DNA of 64,000 nt. Source: Austropuccinia psidii. Taxonomy: Eukaryota > Basidiomycota > Pucciniomycetes > Pucciniales > Sphaerophragmiaceae. The translations under genes and the position numbers were made by a program. Each line of letters begins with the position of its first letter. The first letter of the stretch is position 1. The stretch is from positions 32,255,686 to 32,319,685 of the forward strand of contig JALGQZ010000006.1 in the NCBI GenBank assembly GCA_023105745.1. The letters are read 5' to 3'. Below, piece by piece: positions 465 through 64,000 of this stretch. Under the pieces are notes generated by a model, which did no database searches, was not told where the DNA came from, and saw only the letters and a program-made list of their open reading frames with translations.

Positions 465-951
465 ATGGATGTCAGGGTGAGTCTATCTAGTAGCTATAAA
501 ATGTAAATACAAGCTAGTATTATGACTGTGACACGTCAAAAACAAATAATAAATTAAATCTTCAGGTCCTACTGCTACGTGGTAACAGTGGTGATGAGTC
601 CATTGAGGACCTGGGTTGCAATGCTCTAATATCTTTGACTGTAAAGAAACTGTGAGCCTGTGAGGTATGTATAACATACCCATAAGGCCACAAATGATAT
701 TATAGACAGTTAATTTTGTCTTAAACAGACTTTTTAGTTGAATTTAAAATAAAAAATAACAAAAAATAAGTATAACTTTTTTTTGGATAAACAAAGTTAT
801 AATTATTATGTCATTTTTGGATTCTACACCAAAAATAACATAGGGTACACCCATAGGGTGTTATACCCAAAAACACTTATTTCTTGTGTTATTGGAAGAT
901 TTAAGAATCTCACAGTACTAATGTAGCTTTTTTAACATTTTTTTAAAATTG

Positions 952-983
952 TTAAATTTAAGCTTAATTAAGCTTAAATTTAA
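952..983. repeat. 32-bp perfect palindrome in the alpha-1 LTR U3
   Basis: The sequence TTAAATTTAAGCTTAA followed directly by its reverse complement, with no spacer. The same palindrome is at 9709-9740 in the 3' LTR, unchanged. It lies about 300 bp into U3, upstream of the putative promoter, and could be a dimeric protein binding site or a cruciform-forming site. Confidence 0.9.
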
Positions 984-1948
984 AGTTACATAAGGTTTAT
1001 GCAACTTTACCAAAATTTTAGTTAAAATTGAGGTGTTGTGTATATTTACTGAATTGGCTAAGGATTTGCCATACAGAATGTAAATCCTGCGTGAGCTCAA
1101 TTTAAAAGGGTTTAAAGCCATAGTATGGCTTTAAATAAATAAAAGGGCAAAATCCAACTTTTTGGATCTGCAAGGACTCAATTAAGGTTGTCCACCTGTA
1201 TTGGAGGATTTTGAACCTTATTTAAACTTTAAGATTAGACTTTGATCCAACCTTAAGGTTTAAACTGGTTTTATCCCAATTTGGACAGGAATTTCAAGCT
1301 GCCAAAGGGTAAATCCCAATATGCAGGCTTGAAATCAAGGTTTTAAGAACTGTCAGAGCTTAATTAAGCTTAAAAACCTTAAATAAGCTTAAACCTTTAA
1401 AGTTTCAAGCATTAAAACCTTATCAAAACTTAAGGTTTGGTGTGTATTGCTATTTTACATGGAAAAATAGCAATAACTTCAAAAATTCATTAAAAATCCA
1501 ATTCTTAATGGATTTGCTTGAAATTTTCACACAACTTAGAATTTAATATTATCAATATATAAATTAAATTTTAAGTATCTTTTATAAATAAATTTCCTGG
1601 GTAATTAGCCTGGAAATTTACTCTTTTAATTAAGCTTAAAGAAAATTATGATTTCTTTAAAAATTAATTAAAAATTGAGTTTAAAAGATTTCTGCTTGAA
1701 ACTCTAATTTTAAGTTGTTCATGTGATAAACTTTAATATAAATAAACTTATTTTATATTGAAACTTAAAATAATTAAACTAAATGAGGATTAAAGGTACT
1801 TGGAGTTAAGAATAACACTGGTAACTTTAAATTGGAAGTAAAAATAAGTTGCCTTAAGTTAAGAGCTCTATTTTTAAGCATGGTTTTTCAGTTTTGACCT
1901 GAGCACGCCCTCTACATCCATTATGAATCATGAGAGCTGCTCTGAAGA

Positions 1949-1957
1949 CATAAAAAG
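1949..1957 (+). promoter_or_regulatory. putative TATA box of the A1 LTR promoter
   Basis: CATAAAAAG lies just after the last ATG triplets of U3 (1923 and 1930) and about 70 bp before the splice donor at 2024. The A2 LTR has ACTTAAAAGAAG in the same place. The switch from ATG-containing to ATG-free sequence here supports a transcription start shortly downstream. The exact start is not visible. Confidence 0.5.
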
Positions 1958-2023
1958 AGTCTTTTCATCACTGTTTTTGTCCATCATTCATTATCAATCC
2001 AATCGTATTAGAAATTTAAACAG

Positions 2024-3340
2024 GTAAAGTTTTATTAAATATAAAATATTATTATTAAAAGTAATTCTTAAGTTATTTTTAAACTTTATTTATTGAAATT
2101 AAAGAATTGAAGTCATAGAAGTTAGATTATTGTTGTAATCACCAATAATATATTTTATTATATAAAATTATCATTTTAAATATCTTTTAAAATCCACAAA
2201 TTCCTCTCTAAAACTCTTAAATCATAATTTATATTATTAAAAGTTGTTTTATCTTTAAATTTATTGATTTTTGACGTGTTTTTAACTTATAATTATTATT
2301 TAATATTATAACTGTTGTATTTTGACTTATTATATTAAATAAATCTTATAAGTAAGTTTTCTCTAGAATTCTATATTTTTTTATCTAGTATTAGTTTTTT
2401 TTATATAAAATTTTTATTCTAAAAGAATTATTTCTGCACAGTGTGTGTTTAATTCTTTTTATAAATAATATTTATATTATTTATAAGTGGTTAATATTCA
2501 TATTTTCCACGTGTAATTGTCTCATTAAGAGCTTTACACTTCTTATTGTTATAACTGTCAGTGACTATAACAATAATAGAATAATTATAATTTATTATAA
2601 TTATTATTTTTTTATTATTATATTATTATAATAATAATTAAATTTATTTTTTATATATAATTATTTTTGATAATTATATTTAAATTTGTGGTTATAATAT
2701 TTTATTATATTATATTTTTCTACTGAGGACAGTCATAGTACTCTTGATATTGCTACTATTATCAAGAGTTTCATAGACAAACCTTACATTTGGGGGCCTG
2801 GCCGTGATTTTAAACCAATTTTTGGGACATAAATCATATTCTAGACCTCATTTTACTTTTTTTTGACGTAAAATTGCCATATTTGTCTTAATATTGGCTT
2901 TTTTGGGACTTATCCCTTATAAATAATCTTTATAATATTAATAAAGTTATTTTTTCTTAAGAATATTGTTTGAAACAATATACTATTGAGTGACTTGGAA
3001 TAAATTTCTTTTGTCTAACTAGTGGCTTTTTCACATCACAGACTTGAAATTTATTCTTTGAGTTATTCTAGTATAAAGTGAATAATATCATAATTCTGAT
3101 TAATTAACTTGTTAATTGCATAATTATTATTTCTTTAAAGAAAATAATAAATCAAATAAAAAATCTTTAAAAATAAAAATCTTTACTAAAAACATTTTTT
3201 CTTTTTATCTTAGACATTTTTTCTTTATTTTTGACGTAATTCGCCATAAATTACATTAAAACAACTTTATTCAATAAGTTGAGTTTATAAGTTATTTTTA
3301 TTATTTGATAAAATAACTTATATTTTTAATTTTTCTCTAG
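2024..3340 (+). other. putative long leader intron of A1 (LTR donor to leader acceptor)
   Basis: CAG|GTAAAG at 2021-2029 is a good 5' splice site. A pyrimidine-rich tract ending TTTTTCTCTAG at 3330-3340 is a good 3' splice site. In elements B and C the acceptor TTTTTCTAG|TGTCTT is conserved at the same place and the donor is CAA|GTAAGT in the LTR. Removal would take out the rest of U5 and the primer binding site, giving an RNA that cannot be copied, so it would be a subgenomic message only. No ATG lies inside. Inferred from sequence only. Confidence 0.5.
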
Positions 3341-3506
3341 TGTCTTCCATCAGAGAAAGTTCTTCAGACTCTGAAGCCTCAGAGTCCAGTATTGAAATTC
3401 AAACCAGTCCAGCACCAAGGGGTTTAATAACCAAAGAACCCTTTAAAGGTCCTGCAGGTGAATTCAATTCAATTTTTACTCTATTTTTTATTAAAATTGA
3501 CGTGAA
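2789..3506 (+). other. A1 untranslated leader
   Basis: 718 bp, very AT-rich, with no ATG until the gag start. It holds the primer site, a block shared with element C (GTGGCTTTTTCACATC at 3022-3037, then TTATTCTTTGAGTTA at 3051-3065), the acceptor at 3340, the exon 3341-3457 and the start of a short intron. TTGACGTAA is followed by a GCCATA-type sequence twice (2863-2881 and 3231-3248). Confidence 0.7.
2791..2806 (+). other. primer binding site of A1
   Basis: TGGGGGCCTGGCCGTG starts two bases after the LTR end. The same GC-rich block follows the LTR in element C (50358-50373, identical) and in B (one or two changes), while the surrounding sequence is AT-rich and divergent, so it is under constraint. 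It begins with TGG as expected for pairing with a tRNA CCA end. I cannot name the tRNA; the predicted discriminator base would be C, which is uncommon. Confidence 0.75.
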
Positions 3507-4287
3507 ATGACTCCTACTAGAAGTGGAAGGAACTACTCCATCCAATCAAATGGATCTGGACCAGGACATTCCAGCCACAAATCCAAAAGGCAAGAATCTC
3601 CTCCCAGAGGAGAGGCACAAATGGAGGATGCCAGAACTTCCACCAGTTCCCAAAGGTTAGCCAGCACCTTTGAACCTCTTCTTGAGAGTCCAGAAGCTGA
3701 CATAACTGCTATTGCTGTTAGACCTGAACCATTTCCAACAGGCAGCTGTGGAAATTTATCAATCCCAATGGAAAAACTGGTTCCTAGCATCAAAACAACA
3801 AGAGTGGGAACTCCTTCCAAGTTTTTGGATAGGCACCATGAACTCTTATCTTCAAGTGAAGAAGTTCATGGGGCCAGAAAAGACAGAAGATCTTCTACTG
3901 GGTTGGACACCAATGTCTGTCAAAGGACAAGTCCAACAGATAAAAGCTTGGTTGAAAAACCAAAGCATGTTGTCAGAAGATCAGAAGAAGAAATTGGCTC
4001 AAGGCAAGGACAACAGCCCAGTGGAAGCTCCTCAAGCATCCACCAGCAAAAATCCGCCTCAACCAGTGCCAAACAAGCCCAAGCAAGCCCCAAAAACCAA
4101 CCAAAAGGGCAAGCAGAAGGCAAAGGGAAAGGCAAAGCCCAAGTGGAACAAGCCTTACCCGCAGAATTACAGAATTCCAAAGAAAGAGAAAACAGCCATG
4201 GACAATGTGTTCAATATGGCAAGAACTTTGATGGAATTCAAAAACAAGGAGGAGGAAAGATTGAACCAATCCTTTCCAAAGAAGTAG
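3341..4287 (+). CDS. orfX of A1: putative spliced accessory gene overlapping gag in another frame
   Basis: Proposed exons are 3341-3457, 3521-3655 and 3722-4287, with introns of 63 nt (GTGAAT...CTACTAG) and 66 nt (GTTAGC...CTGTTAG, with CTGAC as a possible branch site). All three are in one frame (+1 relative to gag). The first ATG in the spliced RNA is 3550, giving about 223 residues; exon 1 has no ATG. The product has a tryptophan-rich core (KNWF, EW, a W-x-G-x-MNSYL block, GW-P-S, WLKNQS), a Lys/Pro/Gln-rich basic stretch, the block [10 protein letters not shown], and a C-terminal helix-like [10 protein letters not shown]. The same gene is found in C, with about 58 of 91 core residues identical by hand count against about 36 of 91 for the Gag frame over the same DNA. 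Function is unknown; a nucleic-acid binding accessory role is only a guess. The alternative is an unspliced overlapping frame from 3712. Confidence 0.6.
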
Positions 4288-5744
4288 ACCTTGTAAAGCT
4301 TGTAACTTACTTTGAATCTTGTAATAAAGAAATTATGGCAAAATTTAAAGCATTTGATCATGTCCAACAGAAGTTGGGTAATGAAATATTACAAGTAAAA
4401 GACCAACAAAAGACCATAATTGGCCTTGAAAATGTTAATAAGGCAAATATTTTGTCTTTGACGCAAATTTGTGAAAGACTTGAGCTTAAAGTTACCTTAC
4501 TCAATCAACCAGATGAAAATTCAATTTCTTTTATAACTGGACAGTTGAAAGAATTGAAAATACAAGTGCAAAACTTGGAACATTTAACTGGTCACAATGC
4601 AGCTCTTTTTCAAGAACAATTGGAAAAAAGTGATAAAGCAAGACTTGAATTGAAAGAAGATATTCAATCAAGTATTAATAATATATCACTGAAAAATGAA
4701 TTGCCAAGGCAATCCACACCATTTCTTGACAGAAATGTTCTTAACTTGAATAATGATTTACATCACACAATTTCAAGTAATGATGTGGAAACTGCTTGCA
4801 ATTTTAAAGACATTCCAAGATTAGAGGAATGGCCAACCTTCAGTGGTGAAGGAGAATATAATCATATGGAATTTATGAAAACAATTGATATGTTCAAAGA
4901 AGACTTTAACATACCAGATGAATACATAAGTGCCAGATTACACTCATTATTTACCAAATCAGCAAAGAAATGGTATTATAAGATGAGACAAGACCATGGT
5001 AAACATTCTTGGCCTTGGTGGAAAGAACAAATTATTTCCAAATGGGCAAATGATTCCTGGAGATTTAGAATGGAAAATTCTTTTGAAGAAGCCATTTTTA
5101 ATATTGAGAGGGACAGGCCCATGTCTTGGTTTCTTAAACAGAAGGACAGATTAACTGCCCTTCATCCTGATATGTCTGAAACAATGGTACGTAAAAGGAT
5201 ATTAAGAAAATGTGGTGGTGACCTTGAGCATGCTATAAGAAGCAGATGTATTGAGCCTTGCTCTACAGAGGATTATATCAATGCTATGGAGGATATCACT
5301 ACTAGAACAAAAATTGGAAGAAATTGGTATAAACCCCCAATAGACAACAAGACTAGTGGGAAACCAATTTCAAAACCAAATAAACCACATGACAGACCTC
5401 CTTTGAAATGTCATAAATGTGGAAGTACAGCTCATTTGGCAAACACTTGTCCCAAAAAGACAAGAGTCAATGAGATAAATATTGAAAAAGTGGAAGACAC
5501 AAAAGAAACTGATGTATCTTTACATGAAAGTGATTCTGAACCTTCAGAAGAAGAAGTATTAGAAGAACTTAGTATAGAAAACATTAATGTTTCTTTTGAA
5601 GTCACTGAGGTACATACTCACTTACCACAGTACAGTGATGAATGCATGGATCTCATACATGTGCAAGATGCCAAAATGCAAAAACCAAACCTGCCAGAGG
5701 TAAAGGCTATACAGCTGGGTCATCTTGTATCACTAATATTGTGA
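3507..5744 (+). CDS. gag: A1 Gag polyprotein
   Basis: 745 codons from the first ATG after the LTR promoter. The N-terminal 250 residues are low-complexity (Ser, Gln, Lys, Glu) and overlap orfX in another frame. Then follows a predicted coiled-coil (about residues 255-410), a capsid-like domain ([18 protein letters not shown], then KKWYYKMR and [12 protein letters not shown], typical of Gypsy Gag), and a CCHC knuckle [14 protein letters not shown] near residue 635. It would form the virus-like particle and bind RNA. The stop is 103 bases downstream of the first ATG of the pol frame. In element C the matching region of gag and pol is in one frame, so the frame change here looks like a 1-bp loss near 5677 rather than a designed shift, though a programmed event cannot be excluded. 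The start codon lies inside the proposed intron 3458-3520. Confidence 0.9.
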
Positions 5745-8700
5745 TAAATAACATAGAAGCCAAGATACATCTTGACTCAGGTGCCTTTTGCACTTGTGTT
5801 GGAAAAGATTATCTTGTCAAGATTTATACCAATTGGCAAGACAAGTTGATTCCAATTGAAGGTATAAGATTCAGCAGTGCTAGCCAAAACATGCACCCTT
5901 TGGGTATATTTGAAGCAGCAATAATATTTCCTCATCCTGCAGGAAGTATAAGATTGAAAGCTGAATTTTTTGTTATGAATAATTGTACTTCACAACACTT
6001 TATACTTGGAAATGATTATCTCAATATCTATGGTATTGATATTAATAATCATAAAGACAGATATTTCACTATAGGGGAAAATAAAAGGCAAAAATTTGCT
6101 TTTTCTCCAGAAAGAAGAGAAATCACTGTCATTAAACAAGTGAAAAATGTTAACAAAGACAAATTTGTGTCAGATCAGTTAAGTGAAGCACAAATTAGTC
6201 CTGAATTAACACCAGAAATGAAGGAAGAACTTATTGAAATTTTATTTCAATATAGAGAAGCCTTTGCTTCTGATAATGAACCACTTGGGGCTATAAAAGG
6301 CCATGAGGTGGACATTATGCTTAATGTGGAAAGGCCTTATCCGCCAATATTAAGAAGACCAGCTTACCCAGCTAGCCCTAGAGCTAGAGAAGCATTAGAA
6401 AATCATATTAATGAACTAATGAAACTGGGAGTTCTTAGAAAAGTTGGGCACAATGAAGAAGTTGAAGTCACAACTCCAGTAATCATTACTTGGCATAATG
6501 ATAAGTCAAGGATGGTTGGTGATTTTAGAGCACTGAATACCTACACTATCCCAGACAGGTGTCCAATCCCTAGAATTCACGAGACTTTGACTCAATTATC
6601 CAAAGCAAGATTTATTACTTCTATGGATGCTTTAAAAGGCTTTCACCAGAATGTTTTGACACCTCATGCTAGGAAATTATTGAGAATAATTGCTCATTGT
6701 GGTATTTATGAATATTTGAGGATGCCTTTAGGTATTAAAAATGCACCCTCTCATTATCAGAGAATGATGAATACCATCTTCCCACATGAATTATCAGAGG
6801 GATGGTTAATCATTTATATTGATGACATTATCATTTGTTCAGAAACCTGGCAATTACATTTAGAGAGACTTTCATTAGTACTTAAGAAAATCTTACAAGT
6901 GAACATGAAAATTTCTCTTAAAAAGTGCAATTTTGGATTTCATGAGTTAAAAGCTCTAGGACATGTAGTCTCAGGACTGAGCCTTGGTGTTGATAAAAAC
7001 AAAGTGGCTGCAGTTTTACTGAAACAAATGCCCCAGAACAAAAAAGAAATGATGTCTTTCTTAGGGTTTGCCAGTTATTACAGGCAACACCTTAAAGATT
7101 TTGCAATCCATGCCAGATCATTATACAGAATTTGTGATCAACAAACTGTTTTTGAAATGACACAGGAGAGAATTCAAGCATATGATAAAATCAAGTATGC
7201 CTTGACCAATGCACCATTATTATTAATGCCAGATTGGAAACTTCCTTTCAAGCTGTATATTGATGCATGTGGTGATGGTTTAGGAGCTGCTCTTCATCAA
7301 GTTCAAATTGTCAATGACAAGCCTTATGAGGGTCCAATTTGTTTTATTTCAAGACAAATTAAACCTACTGAGGCCAGATATGGAGCTAGCCAAATGGAGT
7401 GCCTTTGCCTTGTTTGGGCTCTGGAAAAACTTCATTACTATCTTGATGGCAGTGTGTTTGAAGTAATTACTGATTGTAATGCAGTAAAATCACTTCTTAA
7501 CATGAAAACTCCAAACAGACACATGTTAAGATGGCGGATTGCTATACAGGAGTATAGAGGAAATATGACCATAGTACATAAAGCTGGAAATATTCACAAG
7601 AATGCTGATGGCTTGAGTAGATGGGCATTACCCAATACACCTGACAATCCTGCCTATGTTCCTACAAGTGCAGAACCTCAAATTCCAATTGAAGGAATTA
7701 ATATCACAGATGTTGGAACAGAATTCTTTGATGAAGTTAGAGAAAGCTATAAGCAAGATAAAAATTGCCATATACTTACTTCTCTACTTGACAAAGATTG
7801 CAAAGATGCAGCATTGGCTAATTCTCTGGATGATATTTGGAAAACATCTTATGACAACGGAAGATTCCATTTATTTGATGGTATATTATACCATAGGTCT
7901 AAACATACATGTGTCATGGTCCTATGTAGTAGGATGTTGATTAACACAATACTACTAGAATACCATGATAACATTTATTCTGGACATCTGTCTGAAGACA
8001 GAACAATGGAAAGAATTAAGACATGTGCCTGGTGGCCATCTTGGAGAAAAGATGTCATTGAGTACTGTCACAGTTGTGATAGATGCCAGAAAGCCAATAA
8101 AGCTACTGGTAAAAGATTTGGTTTAATGATCCATATTCAAGAACCAAGTACCCCATTGGAAGTGGTTCACATGGAGTGGGTAACTGCCTTACCACCTGGA
8201 GGTGATAAAAGTTACAATGCATGTCTTGTTATTGTAGACAGATATAGCAAAACACTAATCTTTTTACCATGTCACAAAGATGACACAGCTATGGATACAG
8301 CTCTTTTAATCTGGAATAGAGTAATATCCCATACTGGTCTCTTTAAAAACATCATTAGTGATAGAGACCCAAAATTTACATCAGCCTTATGGACTAATTT
8401 ACATACGCTTTTGGGTACAAAATTATCATTCTCAACAGCATACCATCCACAAACAGATGGGTTAGCAGAAAGAATGATTCAAACCCTTGAGGACATGATC
8501 AGAAGATTTTGTGCTTATGGCCTGGAGTTTAAAGATTCTGACGGCTTTACCCATGATTGGTGTACTCTTATACCAGCATTAGAATTAGCCTATAACACCT
8601 CCATCCATGCTTCCACAGGCAAAACTCCTGCAATGTTGGAAAAAGGATGGAACCCCAAACTTCCAGTTGATACTTTGAAGAAAGATCTAATTGATATTCA

Positions 8701-9271
8701 TCCAACTGCTTCAAGCTTTAAATTGTTGCTTGATAAAGTGAGGCACCATGCAAATAAAAGCATGAATGATGCCTTTGAATATGCTAAACAGAAATGGGAT
8801 AAAAGTCATAAAACACCAGAATTCAAAGTAGGGGACTTAATACTAGTTTCAACCTTGAACTTTAATAATATTAAGGGTCCAAAGAAATTGAAAGATTCCT
8901 TTGCAGGACCATTTATTATCAAAGCCCTTCATGGGACAAATGCAGTACAAGTGGAACTGTCAGGAGAGTTAGGAAATAAACATCCAACTTTTCCTGTCAG
9001 TCTTGTAAAGCATTACACTTCAAGTGATAAGGAATTATTTCCTTTAAGAAATGAAACACCCTTAGAGGTACCCCCACTTGAACCAAGTGAGGAAAAGAAA
9101 GTACTGAAAGTCTTAAAAGAAAGAAGACTTAGGGGCAAAAATGAAAGAGAATACTTAGTCAGGTACAGAAATCCACAACATGAAGATGAGTGGATTGAAG
9201 AAAGTAAAATACCTGATTCCCAAAGGTTTCTCAGAAGATTCAGACATGAGAGAAGACCAATTCCTCAGTAA
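5642..9271 (+). CDS. pol: A1 Pol polyprotein (PR-RT-RNase H-IN)
   Basis: 1209 codons, open throughout. Protease active site DSGA at residues 45-48. Reverse transcriptase with [11 protein letters not shown] near 327-337 (Asp 329 catalytic) and YIDD at 392-395. RNase H with Asp 541, Glu 587 and Asp 611. Integrase zinc finger with His 775, His 782, Cys 812 and Cys 815; catalytic core with Asp 907 and Glu 943 (35 residues between), followed by a GPF module and a chromo-like C-terminus ([15 protein letters not shown]). The first catalytic residue, Asp in the MDWV motif of all other copies here, is Glu 845. The real product would be a Gag-Pol fusion; the ATG at 5642 is just the first in this frame. 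The frame is -1 relative to gag with an overlap of about 100 nt and no canonical slippery heptamer. Confidence 0.95.
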
Positions 9272-9395
9272 AAAGTTTGAATTGTGTGCTTTACATACTT
9301 GAAAAGTATAAGTGAAGAGGTTGGACAGTGGATTATACCCCCCCCAAATAACTTGGGGGTATACTACAAAGAAAAATTGTGGTACAATTTTTTTT

Positions 9396-9408
9396 GGTGG
9401 TAGGGAAT
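9396..9408 (+). other. polypurine tract of A1
   Basis: GGTGGTAGGGAA directly before the 3' LTR. Elements B and C have GGTGGGAGGGAA and GGTGAGAGGGAA in the same place. It would prime plus-strand DNA synthesis. The 130 bases between pol and this tract hold no gene. Confidence 0.8.
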
Positions 9409-11595
9409 GTGAGCCTGTGAGGTATGTATAACATACCCATAAGGCCACAAATGATCTTATAGACAGTTAATTTTGTCTTAAACAGACTTTTTAGTTGAAT
9501 TTAAAATAAAAAATAACAAAAAATAAGTATAACTTTCTTTTGGATAAACAAAGTTATAATTATTATGTCATTTTTGGATTCTACACCAAAAATAACCTAG
9601 GGTACACCCATAGGGTGTTATACCCAAAAACACTTATTTCTTGTGTTATTGGAAGATTTAAGAATCTCACAGTACTAATGTAGCTTTTTTAACATTTTTT
9701 TAAAATTGTTAAATTTAAGCTTAATTAAGCTTAAATTTAAAGTTACATAAGGTTTATGCAACTTTACCAAAATTTTAGTTAAAATTGAGGTGTTGTGTAT
9801 ATTTACTGAATTGGCTAAGGATTTGCCATACAGAATGTAAATCCTGCGTGAGCTCAATTTAAAAGGGTTTAAAGCCATGGTATGGCTTTAAATAAATAAA
9901 AGGGCAAAATCCATGCAAAAAGGTGGGACAAAGGAAAAAGACCAAATAGAGCTGGGGTACCCAACTTTTTGGATCTGCAAGGACTCAATTAAGGTTGTCC
10001 ACCTGTATTGGAGGATTTTGAACCTTATTTAAACTTTAAGATTAGACTTTGATCAAACCTTAAGGTGTAAACTGGTTTTATCCCAATTTGGACAGGAATT
10101 TCAAGCTGCCAAAGGGTAAATCCCAATATGCAGGCTTGAAATCAAGGTTTTAAGAACTGTCAGAGCTTAATTAAGCTTAAAAACCTTAAATAAGCTTAAA
10201 ACTTTAAAGTTTCAAGCATTAAAACCTTATCAAAACTTAAGGTTTGGTGTGTATTGCTATTTTACGTGGAAAAAGAGCAATAACTTCAAAGATTCATTAA
10301 AAATCCAATTCTTAATGGATTTGCTTGAAATTTTCACACAACTTAGAATTTAAGATTATCAATATATAAATTCAATTTTAAGTATCTTTTATAAATAAAT
10401 TTCCTGGGTAATTAGCCTGGAAATTTACTCTTTTAATTAAGCTCAAAGAAAATTATGATTTCTTTAAAAATTAATTAAAAATTGAGTTTAAAAGATTTCT
10501 GCTTCAAACTCTAATTTTAAGTTGTTCATGTGATGAACTTTAATATAAATAAACTTATTTTATATTGAAACTTAAAATAATTAAACTAAATGAGGATTAA
10601 AGTTACTTGGAGTTAAGAATAACACTGGTAACTTGAAATGGGAGTAAAAATAAGTTGCCTTAAGTTAAGAACTCTATTTTTAAGCATGGTTTTTCAGTTT
10701 TGAACTGAGCACGCCCTCTACATCCATTATGAATCATGAGAGCTGCTCTGAAGACATAAAAAGAGTCTTTTCATCACTGTTTTTGTCCATCATTCATTAT
10801 CAATCCAATCATATTAGAAATTTAAACAGGTAAAGTTTTATTAAATAGAAAATATTATTATTAAAAGTAATTCTTAAGTTATTTTTATTCTTTATTTATT
10901 GAAATTAAAGAATTGAAGTCATAGAATTTAGATTTTTGTTGTAATCACCAATAATATATTTTATTATATAAAATTATCATTTTAAATATCTTTTAAAATC
11001 CACAAATTCCTCTCTAAAACTCTTAAATCATAATTTATATTATTAAAAGTTGTTTTATCTTTAAATTTATTGATTCTTCACGTGTTTTTAACTTATAATT
11101 ATTATTTAATATTATAACTGTTGTATTTTGACTTATTATATTAAATAAATCTTATAAGTAAGTTTTCTCTAGAATTCTGTATTTTTTTATCTAGTATTAG
11201 CTTTTTTTATATTATTTTTTTATTCTAAAAGAATTATTTCTGCACAGTGTGTGTTTAATTCTTTTTATAAATAATATTTATATTATTTATAAGTGGTTAA
11301 TATTCATATTTTCCACGTGTAATTGTCTCATTAAGAGCTTTACACTTCTTATTGTTATAACTGTCAGTGACTATAACAATAATAGAATAATTATAATTTA
11401 TTATAATTATTATTTTTTTTATTATTATATTATTATAATAATAATTAAATTTATTTTTTATATATAATTATTTTTAATAATTATATTTAAATTTGTGGTT
11501 ATAATAATTTATTATATTATATTTTTCTACTGAGGACAGTCATAGTACTCTTGATATTGCTACTATTATCAAGAGTTTCGTAGACAAACCTTACA
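9409..11595 (+). repeat. A1 3' LTR
   Basis: 2187 bp, same ends as the 5' LTR. It keeps a 49-bp segment (about 9913-9961) that the 5' LTR lost. One of the differences (ACGTGG here, ACATGG in the 5' copy at about 1456) is a CpG transition. The 32-bp palindrome (9709-9740) and the terminal hairpin are conserved. Confidence 0.95.
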
Positions 11596-12930
11596 GAAAC
11601 ACTACAATAATTATATTCTAATTATATCTTTAATAATTCTAAGGACACTACTGATGGATAACAGTCTTGTCACGTAAGAATATAGGTAAAGTAAGATAAG
11701 ATGATGGGTTTTTGAAGGAAAAAAACCCTTCTTTTTATATCTTTCAAGACTGTCAAGAGTTATTAACTCTTCACACGTCAGAGGAGTGAAAATTTTCACT
11801 CCATTGGTCAGTCTGTGGTTCTGGATCCTCAATTCTGACGTCAGTAGAGGCAGAATTGTGGTTTTGGAACCACAAATGATCATTCTGGATCAATACAGGG
11901 TGAAAAAACTTTTCACCTGCCATGTCAGCATTTGGATGACGTTGTTCTGGTGTCTGTATGATCAATACTGGTAATTCTGGGCGGGTTTAAGCTTTGAACA
12001 ACCATTATTTTGAGTATCAAGACAGTACTGGTTGGTACAGGTTTGGTACAGACCAGTATTGGTCAAAATACTTCCAACCAAGATATCTTAGTCAGTTTTT
12101 TAGATATAAAGAAACCAAGAGCACAGAATTGAAGGGCTTAATGAGCTCTTCAATTTGGTATGCTTCATGTTTACCCTTCTTTCAAATAGCAAAAGTTATA
12201 AGGGTTTTAAGTCTTTGGATGTATTTTTGTACATCAGTATGAGGCTTCAAAAACTTCCATGCCAGATATCTTCTTCAATTTGGAAGATATCTGTATTCTG
12301 ATGATAAAGTTTTGTAGGGCTTGATTAGCTCTACAGTTTGGTATATTACACTGTACAGTTGTATGAGTGTATGCCAAAGATACAGGGGTTTGTTTACTTT
12401 CTTGTTTTCAGAATATCTGTATTTCTGGTTGTTAAACCTTTGAACCAAGATCCCTCAGTCAATTTAAGAGATACAGAGGTCTAATGTATCTCAAATTAAA
12501 GCTCTTGTTTATATCTTTAATTTGGTTATACTTTTGTACAGTTTTGTACAAGCCCTCTTTGACTTTCAGGGGGGTCTTGGTTTTGAAATAAAGGTCATAT
12601 GGTATCTCCAGTTGTATTGGTGTTACAACAACATGGATGATATCATTGTGTAGCTCTCTATGTGAGATTTAAGAAAAATACCATTTTGGTATATAATAAC
12701 TTAAATATGCATAAGTTAGATGAGAGGTGAAAATAAGGGTTTTGACCTGTTTATTCCCCTCTAGGTTTCCTTATTCTGTTTGGATAAGGTTGGTGTTTAA
12801 TTTAAGAGGATTGTTTTCTCTTATTTATTACCTGTATTGACTATGTTTGTTCAATACTTGTCATGCCATTATTTATGGTATGTTGGATGTCATGCTAGTG
12901 CTCTGTTTTGAGTAACAGGCTGACAGTGGA

Positions 12931-14292
12931 TGGATTTCCATTGAGATGGGAGCTTGAGGTGGTAGGCATGAGTGCTGACTTTCTTCAAGATTGGAAAAGG
13001 ACCCAACCATCTTTCAGACAGTTTTTTGGTAGGTCTAGTTGATTTGAGGTTCTTGGAGGAAAGTCATACCATTTCACCAGGATTGAAAACAGGTGGACCT
13101 GCTCTACTTTTATCTGCATACCTCTTAAACCTGTTTCTGGCAACTTCAAGTTCTCTCTTGACATCTTGCTGTACTGATTGGATCTTTGTTGATAAATTTC
13201 CAGCAGGAGTATCTTGAGTAATGTGAACTGAGTCAAAATGTGGATCTCTTCCATAAACAGTGAAAATAGTGATTGTTTTGTTGAAGAGTGGTCAGAGTTA
13301 TTGTAGGCAAATTCAGCCAGAGGGAGCCAGGTGTTCTAATCATCTTGATGATAACTGACATACATCCAAAGGTACTGTTCTAGTATCTGATTTACCCTCT
13401 CTGTCTGTCCATCAGCTTCTGGATGGTAAGCAGTTGACAGATCTCTTGAAATCTTGAGCTGCTGACAAAGCTTGGTCGAAAAAGAAGAAACAGAAAGAGA
13501 ACCTCTATCACTAACAATTCTTGAAGAAAGGACATGTTTTGAGAAAATATTCTTGATGAATAAATGGGACAAATCCAGTGAAGTGATTGAAGACATTGTT
13601 GGAATAAAAACAGCCATTTTTGAGAATCTGTCCACTATGACAAGGATTGAGTCAGAAGAATTGGACAGTGGCAATTGAGTGATGAAATCCATTGAAAAAC
13701 AAATCCAAGGACCACTTGGAATTGGAAGAGGCTTGAGGAGTCCAAGCTTCTTGTGATGAATATTTTTGTTTCTTGAACACTGTTGACAGGATGATACATA
13801 ATCCTTGATAAATTGAGTCATTCCAGGCCAGTGAAAATCCTGCTTGACAAGTTTAAGAGTCTTCTCTTGGCCAGGGTGTCCAGCTAGAGGAGAGCCATTC
13901 CTTTTTTTGAAGTATGCTGAGCTGCATTGTGGGGTCATTCGGGACCACCACCCAATCTTTGAACAGGAGAAGTTGGGAGGAGGAATCAAGAGAATAATCT
14001 TGGACAGATTTACCTTCACCCAAATCTTGAAGGATACTTCTATATTGAGAATCTTGCCATAATGCCTTCTGAATTGATTCAATCCAATTTGAAAATGTTT
14101 CCACCTTGACTGCAAAGAATTTTGAGGCTTGAATTTCATCTTGCTTGATTATTTTTTGATAATTCATTGGATTATTGCTGATGAAATATTCCCCCTCTCT
14201 GGGTAAACGTTGTCCCAACGTGATAAAGCATCTGGAAGGGTGGACAAGCGGCCAGGGCAGTAGGTGATTGAAGAATGGAATTCAGAGAGAAA
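12931..14292 (-). pseudogene. element D pol, integrase part
   Basis: Integrase of the delta element in pieces. 13336-14139 carries the zinc-finger end (CQQC), the catalytic core with SMDFITQLP, VSDRGS and YHPEADGQTERVNQ (Asp, Asp, Glu present), ending at a stop after YHQDD. The part from 13335 to 12931 continues in shifted frames through a helical segment and the GPF module up to the LTR insertion, and resumes at 464. Stops and frameshifts also separate it from the RNase H part (about 14140-14290). It belongs to the chromodomain-bearing group; the C-terminal chromodomain is at 165-464. Confidence 0.85.
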
Positions 14293-15669
14293 TTAAGCCC
14301 AGCAGGCTTGATGTTGAGTAAGAATCTTTGATGACATGAAATATTGAAGTGAGGAATGATTGGTGATAACTTCAAAAGAGGAAGAAAGTGAAAGGAGAAA
14401 AGCTCTCCAGCGCTTGAGAGCCCAGACTATGCCAAGGAGTTCCTTGTCATGAATCTCATAATTGAGCTCAGCTGGGAGAAGCTTGCGACTATCAAATGCA
14501 ATTGGATGTTTTCCTGAGTCAGAAATCTGACTCAGTACAGCACCCAAGGCATAATAAGAAGCATCAGTCTCTACAATGGTGGGTAGAGAAGGATCAAAGT
14601 GAGAAAGGATTGGAGCAATGGTGAATGCCTCTTTGAGTTGATGAAACTGTCTCAGAGCTTCCTCATTGAGGGGAAAATGGACATCTTTCTTGAGGAAACT
14701 TGTGAGTGAACTAATCTTCTTTGAATAATTCTTGATGAAACGGCGGTAAAAATTGGCAAAGCCAAGGAATGATTGAAGAGCCTTGAGGTTTCTTGGAGGT
14801 GGCCAATTGAGAATTTGCTGGACCTTTGCTTGGTCCATCTTGAGGCCTTCAGAAGAAACAACATCACCCAAATACTCTTCACTAGTAACATGAAACAGGC
14901 ACTTGGAGGCCTTAGGAAAGAGGTTATTGGCTCTGAGTCTGGAAAGAACAGTGGACACATGAGTGACATGTTCTTCTTCAGATACGGAAAGGACCATAAT
15001 GTCATCCAAATAAACCACAGCATAAATATCAAGAAGATCATAAAAAATATCCTTGACAAGGTTTTGGAAAGAGGCAGGAGCATTGGTGAGCCCAAATGGC
15101 ATAACCAAATACTTATAGATGCCATATTTAGTTCTAAAACTTGTCAAATGTTCATCACCTTCCTGTATTCTGAGCAGGTTATATGCACCACATAAATCAA
15201 TTTTGGAGAAGATAGAAGAACCATTGAAAAAAGTAAGAAGCTGATTCATAGGAGGAACAGGATACTTGTTCTGCCTAGTAACAGCATTGAGTTTGCAGTA
15301 ATCAAAACACAAATGGAGGCCACCATCTTTATTTTTTACAAAGAGGATGGGTGCTCCTGTTGAGGAGGAGCTTGGCTGGATGAAACCTTTCTCTACATTC
15401 TCTGAAATGTAGGCCCTGAGTGTATCTGACTCTTGGTTTGATAAAGAGTAGATCACCCCAACTGGAGGTAGAGACCCCTCCAGCTCAATATGATGATCAC
15501 AGGCACGGTGAGGAGGAAGTTTTTCTGCTTTCACCTTGGAGAATACACCCAAGTACTGGTGATAAACAGAAGGAACAACCTTCATCATGGTTTCTCTTTC
15601 TTCTGGCTCTTCCTCTTCATCCCACAACTCCTCCAGGGAGTCATGATAAGATGAAGGAGGAAGGTCCAT
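14293..15669 (-). pseudogene. element D pol, reverse transcriptase and RNase H
   Basis: 458 codons open. It has the RT palm motifs IDLCGAYN, YLVMPFGLTNAPASFQ and VVYLDDIMVLS (YLDD, Asp pair present), then RNase H with ETDASYYALGAVLSQ and HDKELLGIVWALKRWR. It is a different lineage from the alpha and beta elements, which have YIDD and GIKNAP. Upstream, two in-frame stops (TAA at 15841-15843 and another near 15720, CAA to TAA by the look of the context) part it from the protease. The first residues (DLPPSSYHDSLEELWDEEEE) are an acidic spacer. Confidence 0.9.
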
Positions 15670-31495: not shown

Positions 31496-33323
31496 CTGAA
31501 TTCCTTAAATGACCTGAGCCTCATTTATTTTTGTCTTTTTGGTGCAAGTGTTGGCTAAATGTGAAGTACTTCCACATTTATGACACTTCAAGACAGGTCT
31601 TTCTGGTCTTTTATCCTCTCCGGGAATCTTTGGGACCATCTTGGATTCCATAGGAGCTCTAGTCCAAGTTTTACCAATTCTTGTTCTGGTAATGATATCT
31701 TCCATTGCATTAATGTAGTCCTCTGTGTGTCAGACATATCTGGGTGTAAAGCAGATAGTCTGTCTTTTTTCTTGAAGAACCAAGTAAGTGGCTTATCTTT
31801 CTCTGAGTTAAAAATGGCACTTACAAAATAATTTTCCATTTTAAACCTCCAAGAATTGTTGGCCCATTTGGTAATCACTTCAGATTTCCGCCAAGACCAA
31901 TCATGTTTTCCATGATCTATCCTCATCTTGTGATACCATTTCTTTGCAGTCCTGGTAAACAGACAGTGTAATTTACCCACTATGATTCCATCAGGTATAT
32001 TAAAGTCTTCTTGTAACATATCAATAGTCCTGATGAACTCAATATGGTTGTATTCTCCTTCACCAGAGAATGTTGGCCATTCCTCCAATTTGGAAATATC
32101 TTTAACAGAGACAACATTCTGTCCCAAAAGTGGGGTAAAACTTCCTTTAACAGAACGTTTTTCTTCAGTAAAAGGTGTAGAGTGTCTTGGAATATGTGGT
32201 TCATAATTCTTATTAATTTGTTCTACATTTGCAATTATTTCATTTTATAACTTCTGCCTTTCACTGTCACTTTTTGCTAAATGTGTAGCAAACTGATTGG
32301 TAGTTTCAACTATCTTTAAGATATGATCTTGTAGAATTTTAAGTTGATCATTCATTTTTACAAAAAAAGATATTCAATATCATCATTCTGAACTTGACAT
32401 ATACTCTGAATTCTTCTACATGCATTCATGATTGAATCAAATCTGGCATTTGTCAATTTCTACCATTCAGTACATTTCTTGTCATGTCTTTTCAGAACAC
32501 TGATATCCAATGTTATTTTAGTTAACTTTGCATCAAGTTTACCAATTTCTACATTAATACTACTTTGTACATAATTCATTTGCGTGGAAAGGTCCTGTTC
32601 ATCCTTTCCTGCTCCTTGGCTTTGAATTCTATTAGAGTTCTGGCCACAGCTGAAGGCTCCAATTCAGGGATCCTATACCCCTGTGGGTAAGGTATGTGCC
32701 AATTGGATTTGCCTTGATTGTTCTTGGGACCTCTCTGCTTCTTCTTAGGTCCATTGGTATTGTCCTTGGACCCCTCTGGAGCTGGTTTGGAGCTGGTAGC
32801 CGCCACTTGGGCCTCTGTCTCCAAATCTGGAATCATTTCCAGTTCCTTCTTCTGGTCTATGGATAAAAGACTTTGGTTCTTCAACCAGTTATTTATCTTT
32901 TTGACCTTGTCTTTGCAAGATAGGGGGCTCAACCCTCCTAAGATTTCTATGGTCTTCTCCTGACCCAGAAAGCTCTTGATGTGTAAGTAGTACTTCGTGG
33001 CCCCCTGCCAAAGGCTTTGGCATATTTCCCACTCCTCTTCTTTGGCTGCTCTGAACCAATTTTTGTATTGGCATTGATAAATTTCTATTGCTTCCACTTG
33101 AAATTGGTTCAGCCCTGGAAATATTATCATGAATCAGTTCAGGCTCAGAATTCACGTCAAAATCTGTGGGTACAGACCTTGGGGAATGGAGGGCAACTCT
33201 GGCATCCTCTAAAGGTGTCTTTCTTGAGGAAGACTTGGCACTTCTGAATTTGGTCTTGCCTCTTCCTTGTCCACATCCATCTGGTTGGACTGAATAGTTG
33301 CTTTCATTTCTGGTATGCACCAT
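31496..33323 (-). pseudogene. gag: element B gag
   Basis: The start is the ATG at 33323 ([16 protein letters not shown]). The polar N-terminal part is open to 32889, then frameshifts and stops follow (for example near 32380 and 32245). The capsid block [18 protein letters not shown] and the [16 protein letters not shown] block are at 31740-32127. About 83 bp are missing near 31720 compared with C, joining MSDT to the TEDYIN block and shifting the frame. The knuckle [14 protein letters not shown] follows at 31540-31590, then a stop near 31505. Confidence 0.88.
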
Positions 33324-44121: not shown

Positions 44122-44261
44122 TTCCCTCTCACCAAAAAATAAAATTGTACTACAATTTCATTAGTGATAAAAGAATAAGGCCCCAAAGGGGGTTAATGTC
44201 CACTGTCCAACCTCTTTAAATTACTCAGATCAAGTAATTTAAAGCACATTTATAGACATAT

Positions 44262-47852: not shown

Positions 47853-49804
47853 TCTTAAGTACACTGAATTTCTTCAATGAATTGAATTTCATTGATCTTT
47901 GTCTTCTTAGGACAAGTGTTGGCTAAATGTGAAGTACTTCCACATTTATGACAGTTCAAGACAGGTCTTTCTGGTCTTCTTTCCTCTCTAGGAATCTTTG
48001 AGACTATTTTGGACTCTATTGGGTTTTTAGTCCAAGTCTTACCAATTCTTGTTCTGGTAATGATATCTTCCATAGAATTAATGTAGTCCTCTGTTGAACA
48101 AGGTTCCACACATCTGCTTTTGATAGCATGTTCCAGTTCTCCTCCACACTTTCTTAATATTTTCATATTAATCATAGTGTCAGACATATCTGGGTGTAAA
48201 GCAGATAATCTGTCTTTTTGTTTGAAGAACCAAGTAAGTGGTTTGTCTTTTTCTGAGTTAAAAATGGCACTTTCAAAAGCATTTTCCATTTTAAACCTCC
48301 AAGAATTATTGGCCCATTTGGTAATCATTTCAGATTTCCACCAAGACCAGTCATGTTTACCATGATCAATCCTCATTTTGTAATACCATTTCTTTGCAGT
48401 CCTGGTAAATAAACAGTGTAATTTTCCCACTATGATTTCATCAGGTATATTGAAGTCTTCTTGCAACATATCAATAGTCCTGATGAATTCAATATGGTTG
48501 TATTTTCCTTCACCAGAGAATGTTGGCCATTCTTCTATTTTGGGAATATCCCTTGTAGAGTAGGCATTTTCTCCTAATAATGGGGTGAGACTTTCTTTAA
48601 CAGAAAGTTTCTCTTCAGTTAAAGGTGTAGGATGTCTTGGCATATGTGGTTCATGATTCTTATGAATTTGTTCCACACTTGCAATTATTTCATTCTTCAA
48701 CTTCTGCTTTTCACTGTCACTTTTTGCTAAGTGTATGGCAAATTGATTTGTATTCTCAACTATTTTTAAGACTTGGTCTTGCAAAATTGTAAGTTGATCA
48801 TTCACCTTAAAAATGGAAAGATCTTCCATTTCATCATGCTGAATTTGGCACATATTTTCAATTCTTTTGCAAGAATTGGTAATTGAGTCAAGTCTGGCAT
48901 TTGTCACTTGGTGCAATTCAATGTATGTTTTGTCATTTTTCTTTAATTCAACTATATCTGATGCAATTTTAGTTAACTTTCTATCAAGTTTACCCATTTC
49001 TATATTAATACTAGTCTCTACACCAATTATTTGCGTGGAAAGTTTCTGTTCATCCTTTCCTGCTCCTTGGCTGTGAATTCCATCAGATTTCTGGCCATAT
49101 TGAAGACACTGTCCACGGCTGAAGGCTCCAATTTGGGGATCCTGTACCCCTGTGGGTAAGGTCTGTGCCAATTGGCTTTTCCTTTGCCCTTTCCTTGATG
49201 GTTCTTGGGACCCTTCTGCTTCTTCTGAGGTCCCTTGGGATTGTCTTTGGACACTTCTGGAGCTGGTTCGGAGCTGGTAGACGCCACTGGTGCCTCTGTC
49301 TCCAAAGCTGGAGTCATTTCCAACTCTTTCTTCTGGTCTATGGATAAAAGACTTTGGTTCTTCAACCAACTCTTTATCTTTTTGACCTTGTCTTTGCAAG
49401 ACAGGGGGCTCCATCCTCCTAAGAGTTCTATGGTCTTCTCCTGACCCAGAAAGCTCTTGATGTGTAAGTAGGAGTTCATGGCCCCCTGCCAAAGGCTTGG
49501 GCAGATTTGCCACTCCTCTTCCTTGGCTGCTCTGAACCAGTTTTTGTACTGGCATTGATAAATTTCTATTGCTGCCACCTGAAAGTGGTTCAGCCCTGGA
49601 AATATTACCATAAATCAGTTCAGGCTCTGAATTCACGTCAAAATCTGTTGGTACAGACCTTGGGGAATGGGGGGCAACTCTGGAATCCTCCAAATGTGTC
49701 TTTCTTGTGGAAGACTTGGCACTTCTGGATTTGGTCTTGCCTCTTCCTTGTCCACATCCATCTGGTTGGACTGAATAGTTGCTTCCATTTCTGGTATGCA
49801 CCAT
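47853..49804 (-). CDS. gag: element C Gag
   Basis: 649 codons from the ATG at 49804 to a TAA at 47853-47855. Polar N-terminus ([20 protein letters not shown]), coiled-coil (about residues 265-390), capsid block [53 protein letters not shown], and the knuckle [14 protein letters not shown] near residue 625. In B the base triplet at the stop position codes for Glu (CSEEKEE), so the TAA is probably a mutation and the family would make one Gag-Pol frame. The N-terminal 250 residues overlap orfX. The start codon lies in the proposed intron 49791-49853. Confidence 0.92.
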
Positions 49805-49997
49805 TTTTACGTCAATTTAAGGATAAAGAGTAAAAATAAAGATAAAAACACACCTTTTGGTGGTAATTTATTCTTTTCAGAATTAAATAAGGTGCCTATT
49901 TTAGCAATTTGCACCTCAATACTTTCCTCAGATTCTGGGCTAGTAATATATCTTTTACTGAGTCTGTTGCCAGCTGCACAGTATTTGATTAAAGACA
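49027..49997 (-). CDS. orfX of element C: putative spliced accessory gene overlapping gag
   Basis: Proposed exons 49854-49997, 49659-49790 and 49027-49595. Introns 49791-49853 and 49596-49658, both 63 nt, GTGTGT...ACCAG and GTCTGT...TCCAG. Frames match across both. The first ATG of the spliced RNA is 49788 ([14 protein letters not shown]), giving about 232 residues. Exon 2 shares SNQMD, then RH-x-WR, then PELPP-x-P with A1. Exon 3 has the Trp-rich core ([36 protein letters not shown]), a Lys/Pro/Gln-rich basic stretch, [10 protein letters not shown] and [11 protein letters not shown], ending NFPRK. In the unspliced frame, TGA codons inside the second intron (near 49640) block translation, so the intron is needed. 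I do not recognise any domain. Function unknown. Confidence 0.62.
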
Positions 49998-62482: not shown

Positions 62483-63800
62483 CTAAGATGGTTCTCTGAT
62501 GGCATCACCCATAGAGTCTGAATCAGAATCCTCTGTTGGAGGTTCTTCCTCAGGGACTGTCTCTATGGCATAGATTTTCTTCTTTGCCTTTGGACAGTTG
62601 TTGGCATAATGGTCTGTTGAACCACAATTGTGGCAAGAACTTTTCTTCTTAGCCACTTCTGCCACTCTTTCTCTGGGTTTGTCCTTAAACTCTACCCTGA
62701 GTGGTTGTTTCTCTTTGAAACTGCTGCTTCTATATAGGGTGAATTTCCCTATATTAGTCCTCTTCCTTATGTCCTGTAAGGTGTTGGCTATTTCATCTAG
62801 AGTGCAATTCTGGTTGCACCTGCATTTTACTGCATGCTCTAGCTCTCCTGGCAGTTGTGTCAGAAGTTTTTGATTCCTCATTTGGATGTTCATCTGAGGA
62901 TCAATGGCGTTAAGTCTTTTAGACTTTCTAAGACACCACTCATATGGATCTTTGTCCAAAGAGTATTTGTAATTCTCAAATGACATGGTCTTTTGCCATA
63001 TCCAAGTTCCATTACTGTACTTTTGGATGATTTGACTCTTCCACCATGGCCAGTTTCTTCTGCCACGGATTTCTTTCATTTCTGTATACCATATACTTGC
63101 ATGACCTTTGAATGCAGTATTTAATCTAGCAGTAATCCAGTAGTCTGGTATGCTTGGTACATCAATGAAGAGTCCATCAATATAATCTATGATTTCCATA
63201 TGATCATATTCTCCTGATCCAGAGAATTTGGGCGAGTTTGAGGCCTCAGGAAGCTGTTTCAAGGCTTCCTTCTCTGAATAAGACATGCCATCTCCATCCT
63301 GGTTTTGTGATGGAGATCTTGCCTTATTCAACAACATGGCATCTGGTTTGATGTCATCTGGTTGATATGGATTCTCCATAGCTTGGCCTTGTGGTTGGGG
63401 CTTCAAGCTATGATAGGCATTAAAGAATTTGTTAATGTCTTGATCCAGACACTCCCTGTCCCTTGTGCTGTGGTGTTGTTCTTCAAAGACTATGTTCAGT
63501 CTTTTGTTGGTTTCTTCAGAGGCTTTGCTCAGTTGAGCATATCCTTCTTGAAGATTTTTAACTATTTGTTCCAAGGAGGCTTGAGTTTGTCTCATCCTCT
63601 CTTGGCTAGCTTTAATTTCTGCAAACTGCTTTGCAGATTGTTCAGCATATTGGGACATTTGTAACCACAGTGTATCACTGTTGATGTTACTCTCAGATGT
63701 GACAATGTTATTTTCAGTCTGAGTGGGGGTAATGTTTCTATTACTAGGACTACTGATTCTAGAGTGGTGTACAACTACTTCTGGTTCTTGTGTACTTCTT
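62483..63800 (-). CDS. gag: element E Gag (from about the coiled-coil on)
   Basis: Open from about 63800 (no ATG until 63658) to a TAG at 62483. It has a coiled-coil (MSQYAEQSAKQFAEIKASQE onward), capsid blocks (SNSPKFSGSGEYDHMEIIDY, ASIWYTEMKEIRGRRNWPWW, MSFENYKYSLDKDPYEWCL, NIQMRNQKLLTQLPGELEH), the knuckle CHNCGSTDHYANNC and an acidic tail with SDSDSMGDAIREPS. The stop replaces a codon that is Asp in F (SDDEQDPRE block), so Gag and protease may once have been one frame. The N-terminal sequence before 63658 is open in this frame and overlaps the next feature. Confidence 0.85.
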
Positions 63801-64000
63801 TTACCAAATCTAACAGCTTCTGGATCATGGGATCTGACTCTTTCCTCCTCTGGTTGAAGGAGGTTTTGTTCTTGCCCTTGTTCCCTTGTCTTCTCCTGGA
63901 AACTTCCTGGAATTGTGAAGAATGGTGACTCTTGGCCACTGATCTGCTGGTTTCTGAATGGTGTGAAGCCACTGGAGAGCTGATTTGGCCTGATCCTTGT
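63775..64000 (-). CDS. element E open frame upstream of and overlapping gag (partial)
   Basis: Open from the window edge to a TAG at 63775: basic, Ser/Gln/Lys-rich (SVAKSHHSSQFQEVSRRRQG, NKGKNKTSFNQRRKESD), then a helical end DPMIQKLLDLVKEVHKNQK. It is in a different frame from gag (62483-63800) and both frames are open over at least 25 bases and probably more. It is either the Gag N-terminus shifted by an indel, or a counterpart of the alpha orfX, which also is basic and also ends just before the Gag coiled-coil. Confidence 0.5.
   Translation of the reverse strand, partial: QGSGQISSPVASHHSETSRSVAKSHHSSQFQEVSRRRQGNKGKNKTSFNQRRKESDPMIQKLLDLVKEVHKNQK

Follow-up and report, generated by a model that had tools for sequence, protein, structure and literature searches.

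Introduction

Extra regulators expressed from spliced RNA are a hallmark of the complex retroviruses, and many retroviruses produce spliced RNAs that lack the gag start codon. Regulators of the Rev/Rex type are small proteins made from RNAs from which long introns spanning gag-pol have been spliced out, and the genomic RNA retains these introns. Extra spliced regulators are known in few Ty3/Gypsy elements, the one found here being Cer1 of Caenorhabditis elegans.

The Cer1 protein CERV is described as the product of a spliced Cer1 RNA that is read partly in a non-gag frame, as nuclear, and as required for the export of the unspliced RNA and for Gag, which is made from that unspliced RNA (PMC10309623). 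It has 517 amino acids with H, M and G domains, shares exons 1–3 with Gag, and is also found in related elements, with no obvious relatives beyond nematodes according to the available part of the same paper (PMC10309623). Extra conserved genes (aORFs) are also reported for plant LTR retrotransposons, where they are placed more frequently downstream of pol, ahead of the 3′ LTR (PMC7264820). For fungi, the available text of a review of LTR retrotransposons (PMC3248453) contains neither “intron” nor “splic” nor “additional ORF”, and among the papers listed by a literature search, no title or beginning of an abstract described a gene of this kind in the Gypsy elements of rusts or other fungi. The rust Austropuccinia psidii has a haploid genome of ~1 Gb that is ~90% transposable elements, with Gypsy elements predominant, and the Ty3/Gypsy expansion is discussed in its genome papers, the available parts of which mention no extra gene (PMC12774611, PMC8063080).

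In the window, i.e., the whole stretch of 64,000 nucleotides of A. psidii DNA that was analysed, a spliced gene in an alternative frame over gag (orfX, with its product X) had been proposed for one Ty3/Gypsy element, A1, in a sequence-only reading. Like CERV, X would be made from a spliced RNA of the element in a frame other than that of gag; in contrast to CERV, it is smaller, has no reading frame in common with Gag, and has a tiny intron whose removal would take away the Gag start. In contrast to the Rev/Rex-type proteins, it sits over gag itself and had no relative in Pfam or PDB searches, and in contrast to the plant aORFs, it lies across the 5′ end of gag and seems to be spliced. X is rated here as an undescribed protein family, whose position and switch differ from those of Cer1 and the complex retroviruses, though it is likewise a spliced accessory gene, and it appears to be the third, apparently undescribed gene of a very abundant element.

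Element A1 and its neighbours

The genome surrounding the window amounts to 1.015 Gb in 84 contigs. Element A1 (positions 651–11595) has two LTRs, is flanked by copies of the target site GAAAC (646–650 on the left and 11596–11600 on the right), and encodes a Pol with reverse transcriptase and RNase H ahead of the integrase, the features by which Ty3/Gypsy elements are recognized; its Gag and Pol frames are both open. The Pfam matches in Pol were RVT_1 (residues 287–442), RNase H (507–638), the integrase zinc domain (766–820) and rve (837–936), the last at 32.0 bits, just below its cut-off of 32.6, and a chromodomain (PF00385) at the integrase C-terminus was a weak match under the gathering score (E = 0.0044). 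The LTRs, a Gag with a CCHC-like knuckle and the order reverse transcriptase–RNase H–integrase are shared with other rust Ty3/Gypsy elements. The Gag and Pol frames differ and overlap by ~100 nt (5642–5744), so that a frameshift or a similar device would be needed to make Gag-Pol. Immediately 3′ of the 5′ LTR (2789–2810) stands the sequence TTTGGGGGCCTGGCCGTG, which looks like a tRNA primer site and is common to the alpha and beta types of element, as it is also found at the leader starts of C and L009.

Element C (42216–52301, minus strand) has LTRs at 52301–50375 and 44121–42216 that are 97.5% identical. It is adjoined, in the same orientation, by D (~25.7–35.8 kb), a decayed relative with similar LTR repeats. 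Between the alpha elements, at 12926–15498 on the minus strand, there are Pol-like ORFs with only 24–32% identity to A1 Pol, which are assigned to a second, distant Gypsy lineage.

Structure of orfX

The three exons proposed for orfX of A1 were confirmed as open and in one phase, as were the two GT...AG introns between them (Table 1), and the roughly 190 stop-free codons ascribed to the last exon correspond to 187 codons plus the stop, within a stop-to-stop ORF of 193 amino acids. Each intron carries a stop in the X frame (TAG at 3658–3660 in intron 2). The coordinates of exon 1 also held, with the correction that this exon begins at a 3′ splice site (CTCTAG|TGTCTTCC), which implies at least one further, leader exon. 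The structure of orfX in C, on the minus strand, is the same as in A1, and D has the same exon 1 acceptor as the loci compared below. Taken with the results that follow, X is by sequence criteria very probably a gene, in a frame shifted from gag and lying over the gag start.

Table 1. Features of the A1 element and of the X genes in the window.
Feature	Position	Strand	Remark
A1 5′ LTR (TGTGAG...CTTACA)	651..2788	+	96% identity to 9408–11595
A1 leader, LTR to Gag ATG	2789..3506	+	zero ATG in 718 nt
Candidate leader donor TATAAA|GTGAAT	3078..3083	+	joining to 3341 would create A|TG (inferred)
A1 3′ splice site TTTTCTCTAG ahead of exon 1	3331..3340	+	AG|TG
A1 orfX exon 1	3341..3457	+	no in-frame ATG; present in MF-1 models P0003, P0008
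A1 intron 1	3458..3520	+	GTGAAT..CTACTAG, 63 nt; holds the Gag start codon
A1 Gag ATG	3507..3509	+	its A lies 14 nt from the end of intron 1
A1 Gag ORF	3507..5744	+	first 260 codons overlap orfX; CCHC knuckle weakly matched downstream
A1 orfX exon 2	3521..3655	+	first ATG after splicing at 3550–3552, X frame
A1 intron 2	3656..3721	+	66 nt; Gag codons unconstrained between A1 and C
A1 orfX exon 3, with stop	3722..4287	+	helical core, Lys/Pro/Gln-rich tract, C-terminal helix (low-confidence model)
A1 Pol ORF	5642..9271	+	reverse transcriptase, RNase H, integrase; weak chromodomain match
A1 3′ LTR	9408..11595	+	96% identity to 5′ LTR
D decayed orfX, exons 2–3	32579..33307	−	one stop and gaps
C orfX exon 3	49027..49595	−	
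C intron 2	49596..49658	−	63 nt
C orfX exon 2	49659..49790	−	
C intron 1	49791..49853	−	63 nt; holds the Gag ATG (49804)
C orfX exon 1	49854..49997	−	
X-like gene of a beta-type element, C-terminal part	63775..63999	−	runs on outside the window (L009, minus 1216–461)

Selection on the X frame between families

The between-family tests compare pairs of real copies, some of them decayed, and a few of the differences are neutral decay. For the core from LNHFQ to the DQKK block, the identities between A1 and C that had been estimated earlier proved to be exact, with 58 of 91 residues in the X frame and 36 of 91 in the Gag frame, and over the whole of exon 3 the values were 57% for X and 37% for Gag. 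At positions 1, 2 and 3 of the 186 X codons of exon 3, there were 60, 43 and 92 differences (0.32/0.23/0.49), and the same DNA read in the Gag frame gave 91, 60 and 46 for 187 codons (0.49/0.32/0.25). Past the overlap, Gag differed at 132, 113 and 217 of 429 codons (0.31/0.26/0.51), a codon-position pattern distinct from that of the overlap (chi-square 33.9, p = 4e-8), and Pol gave 0.15/0.07/0.47 over 1038 codons. In exon 2 the X frame showed 0.30/0.21/0.42 (43 codons), whereas within intron 2 the Gag codons differed at ~0.7 for every position (14, 14 and 15 of 21) with an amino acid identity of 24%, which indicates constraint on the exons in the X frame and none on intron 2. The amino acid conservation of X (57%) is close to that of the Gag-only region (54%). 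The third positions of X thus change most and Gag is the less conserved frame, as had been claimed in arguing that the alternative frame is no by-product, and the between-family comparison supports a spliced overlapping gene under selection.

A comparable pattern was seen with other types of element. In the gamma type (L042, L044), which is without intron 2, X is homologous to alpha X over its full length (BLASTP E 4e-29 to 2e-26), against E values of 1e-7 to 1e-4 for the Gag N-terminus encoded by the same DNA; A1 and L042 differ by 0.41/0.35/0.59 in the X frame and by 0.57/0.45/0.49 in the Gag frame. L056 represents a further alpha-like type (X3 against A1, 0.36/0.30/0.66), and L050 showed the same codon-position inversion against A1 and C as these two show against each other. 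The beta type (L009, L052, L054) has a protein at the same place as alpha X: between L054 and L009, X differs by 0.35/0.30/0.50 (49% amino acid identity) and the Gag over X by 0.45/0.33/0.34 (38%). L052 and L009, which differ by 0.05 at each position in either frame, have diverged too little for this comparison. The gag-only DNA of L054 and L052 gave 0.34/0.27/0.56, and the amino acid conservation in the beta type was 46–49% for X against 51% for gag-only. None of four profile comparisons between alpha/gamma X and beta X was significant, the best (E 0.036) involving a GW.P motif.

Openness of the two frames

In a permutation test, the protein of one frame was kept fixed and synonymous codons were either shuffled within each amino acid or drawn by Gag-Pol usage. 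With X fixed, exon 3 of A1, C and L009 would be expected to hold 7.2–8.6 stops in the Gag frame by shuffling and 16.7–18.4 by usage; none was observed in any of the three, which was reached in 0 of 4000 permutations each, and L054 likewise had none against a mean of 8.1 (0 of 5000). The unused third frame behaved as expected (P 0.56–0.95), and exon 2 was too short for this test (P 0.12 and 0.24 by shuffling, 0.004 and 0.018 by usage). The Gag frame is therefore open far beyond chance given X in A1, C, L009 and L054, and translation of Gag very likely runs through the overlap.

With Gag fixed, the X frame was open with P values of 0.005 (A1), 0.003 (C) and 0.07 (L009) by shuffling and of 0.004, 0.0005 and 0.001, respectively, by usage, and L054 had one X stop against 3.55 expected (P 0.018). 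The third frame, too, had fewer stops here than expected under the usage model (P 0.0008, 0.04 and 0.005; by shuffling 0.21, 0.47, 0.03 and 0.05), which means that the usage model is too generous and that the evidence for X given Gag is weak in the beta type; X is open beyond chance given Gag in A1 and C. Since the amino acid constraint lies on X, the N-terminus of Gag looks like an overprint and is better seen as written over X: the overlap described earlier stands, and its direction would be the reverse.

Variation within the A1 family

An alignment of the alpha copies in both frames had been suggested as a check, and here the result did not support the proposal. Among 39 copies of the A1 family (97.7–98.8% identical to A1 across 1.7–2.8 kb), the changes looked neutral in the X frame, i.e., selection on X was not visible within this young family. 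The segregating rates in exon 3 were 0.197/0.134/0.133 at X positions 3/1/2, and the 85 singletons (XnGn 50, XsGn 19, XnGs 14, XsGs 2) fit the neutral spectrum (expectation 0.556/0.206/0.229/0.009), with just 14 shared variants, too few for use. The singletons of the Gag-only region were, however, nearly neutral too (137 of 190 nonsynonymous, 0.72 against 0.785 expected), so that the single-family test is uninformative. Stops were present in X in 8 copies and in the overlap part of Gag in 5; the X stop was lost in one copy and the Gag ATG in one. The GT and AG of intron 1 were intact in 39/39 copies, those of intron 2 were altered in three, and acceptor 0 was altered in one.

Splice sites and a proposed start-codon switch

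The splice layout was compared in eight loci (A1, C, L042, L044, L056, L009, L052 and L054), with the sites chosen by eye from the translations and L049, L050 and L051 outside the comparison. In all eight, exon 1 begins with TG after a pyrimidine-containing AG (AG|TG) and the Gag ATG lies inside intron 1 of X, 11–20 nt before its end (counted from the A, 14 nt in A1, C and the gamma type, 11 nt in L056 and 20 nt in the beta type). In the alpha and gamma types, the acceptor AG is contained in the Gag codons M-x-x-T/S-R. Intron 1 is 63 nt long in A1, C and L044, 68 nt in L009, 81 nt in L054 and 88 nt in L056, the six loci measured, and the donor position of L042 reads GAAAGT.

The leader of A1 has no ATG against 11.5 expected from base composition and 8.7 from dinucleotides, and that of C has none in 570 nt against 9.3 expected from base composition; the first-order Markov probability of an ATG-free leader is 0.0002 for A1 and 0.0006 for C (5000 runs each). 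The ATG-free run upstream of the Gag ATG extends over 1,576 nt in A1, back to 1931 in the LTR (0/3000 simulated runs), and in C the nearest upstream ATG is 703 nt before that of Gag, inside the LTR. Control triplets are uneven in the leader (AGT 14, TGA 17, TAG 5, GTA 4 and GAT 3 in A1; GAT 2 in C), and part of the ATG shortage may therefore be compositional, though only ATG is absent from both. In the beta type, 3, 4 and 4 ATGs were counted in the leaders, with 15–21 expected. It follows from the ATG-free leader that the first AUG past the LTR on an unspliced A1 or C RNA is that of Gag; once intron 1 is removed, the AUG that comes first belongs to the X frame, at 3550 in A1 and 49788 in C. 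The unspliced RNA should thus give Gag, and splicing, which removes the Gag start, should give X, so that the choice between the two proteins seems to lie with splicing.

The beta exon 1, which lies upstream of the Gag ATG, shows conservation at the protein level from the first codons onward (L054–L052, 57% amino acid identity, 0.30/0.28/0.45 over 98 codons, one stop in L052) and has no in-frame ATG near its start. Most simply, the last base of a leader exon would be an A, and the joining of this exon to the TG would provide an AUG for X. Donor-like sites after an A, which are consensus matches only, are TTACAA|GTAAGT in L009, TTATAA|GTAAGT in L052 and, among others, CTAACA|GTGAGT in L054; those of C are found only inside the LTR, and there was no such match in L056 or in the 200 nt examined for L042. 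The leader donor differs between families.

Distribution of X in the genome

Sixteen genome samples (eight of 8 kb and eight of 7 kb) were taken at fixed round coordinates, i.e., not at random. X-like sequence was found by tblastn (E ≤ 1e-4) in 8/16, including two short pieces (L049 and L051), with gag in 9/16 and pol in 11/16, and elements with X are, as far as such samples go, widespread. A protein search of the genome with the X of C gave 40,119 first-look candidates, of which 150 were scored; these were 95–100% identical, C itself included, and 142 had no internal stop. Decayed copies were also met, with stops in L042, L044, L050, L052 and L056 and loss of the exon 1 frame in L009. Two older gag-pol remnants (L045, L046) had no X upstream by tblastn and no open X-like frame.

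The X protein

X has ~230–270 amino acids in the alpha type and ~300 or more in the beta type. The Trp-rich core and basic tract noted previously were found again in alpha X, which consists of the short exon 1 part, a Trp-containing core with a GW(T/S/H/N)P motif, the Lys/Pro/Gln tract and a C-terminal helix before the stop that is conserved in alpha and similar in gamma. The earlier failure to recognize a domain was borne out, as no Pfam family scored over its cut-off and no PDB match was obtained for X. Rev-type regulators are marked by a leucine-rich export signal and an RNA-binding motif rich in arginine; X was seen by eye to have a Lys-rich basic tract along with a helix at its C-terminus. 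Structure prediction for alpha X (exon 3) and beta X gave all-helical, poor models (pLDDT 57 and 40), and a single scan of viral contigs with alpha X returned no relative.

Possible functions of X

X is seen as an accessory gene of these Ty3/Gypsy elements, and a role as a Rev/CERV-like regulator is favored for it at a probability of roughly 0.4, because the layout amounts to a splicing choice between the structural protein and a small basic protein, and because CERV is the best functional precedent. Ribosomes on the unspliced RNA, with its AUG-free leader, would reach the AUG at 3507 and make Gag(-Pol), whereas excision of intron 1 would take this AUG away and leave that at 3550 as the first; if the leader intron were excised as well, the A|TG junction would probably give X an earlier AUG at exon 1. 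We infer that X would then bind the intron-containing RNA of the element and either permit its export or protect it from splicing; the spliced RNA would come first, and the genomic RNA and Gag would follow after X has accumulated. Against this role weigh the empty Pfam and PDB searches, the poor structure models, the missing intron 2 of the gamma type, the small number of database models with an intron at the place of intron 1, the variable leader donor, the scarcity of other triplets in the leader, the lack of visible selection within the A1 family and the non-significant alpha–beta comparisons of X. Slightly more tentative is the wider suggestion that fungal Ty3/Gypsy elements evolved a programme like that of the complex retroviruses, in which a spliced early regulator, X, is overprinted by the Gag N-terminus and splicing both removes the Gag AUG and creates that of X, and that much of the expansion of repeats in the 1-Gb genome went along with this programme. 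If true, a conserved spliced regulator in a fungus would point to such control having arisen also in intracellular elements, and the switch between X and Gag would be unusually economical.

Alternatively, X could be a particle or nucleic-acid-binding accessory (e.g., an RNA chaperone or assembly factor), with splicing merely expressing it apart from Gag. The basic Lys/Pro/Gln tract, the predicted helices and an amino acid conservation near that of the Gag-only region, in A1–C as in the beta type, would suit such a protein, but the position of the Gag start inside the X intron in 8/8 loci would then be left unexplained, and since this layout points to a choice of product, the accessory role is considered rather unlikely. 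That X controls copy number or counteracts silencing, by a logic like that of Ty1 p22 or as a silencing suppressor, seems less probable again: the elements are very abundant and partly recent, as the sample and candidate counts above indicate, but p22 of Ty1 is a segment of Gag read in the gag frame, whereas X is in another frame and has its own conserved sequence. It is more doubtful still that X forms the N-terminal domain of a fusion with Gag produced by further splicing to the downstream Gag frame, as in the database models P0131 and P0014, which join X to Gag-frame sequence, for X keeps a stop of its own in the alpha, gamma and beta types, with the C-terminal helix conserved right up to that stop, and the fusion models disagree among themselves. 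Finally, the notion that there is no separate gene and that the X frame is open as a side effect of the composition of Gag, to which the basic, repetitive Gag N-terminus, the shuffling result for L009 and the neutral-looking changes within the A1 family might lend some color, is already contradicted by the codon-position asymmetry in A1–C, alpha–gamma and the beta pair, by the better conservation of X than of Gag over the same DNA, by the improbable openness of X given Gag in A1 and C and by the far stronger homology of X between distant families, and could be rescued only by a systematic alignment artefact.

Database gene models

Three protein searches with X gave 411, 956 and 326 matches. 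Among the best 120 of the 411 matches to X exon 3, 118 were named as A. psidii MF-1 hypothetical proteins and two carried no name, and the best 120 of the 956 and the best 120 of the 326 were all from A. psidii MF-1. Many of the MF-1 “hypothetical proteins” would thus belong to mobile elements and not be host or effector genes. The plant-type UniRef name of one of them, P0245 (“No apical meristem-associa...”), was not supported by a Pfam scan.

Twenty-four MF-1 gene models were fetched out of 120 listed. The junction of intron 2 is present in 15/24 (nine of the VPKD type and six of the IPQG type), and other models (P0007, P0014, P0107 and P0131) join the X and Gag frames in differing ways, which we take as gene-finder guesses. 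An intron at the position of intron 1 is present in only 2/24, P0003 and P0008, where it joins exon 1 to exon 2 with borders that are a few codons off (three residues fewer and one more), the intron 2 acceptor of P0008 being different as well. Both of these models are marked partial, as would be expected if the start codon is split.
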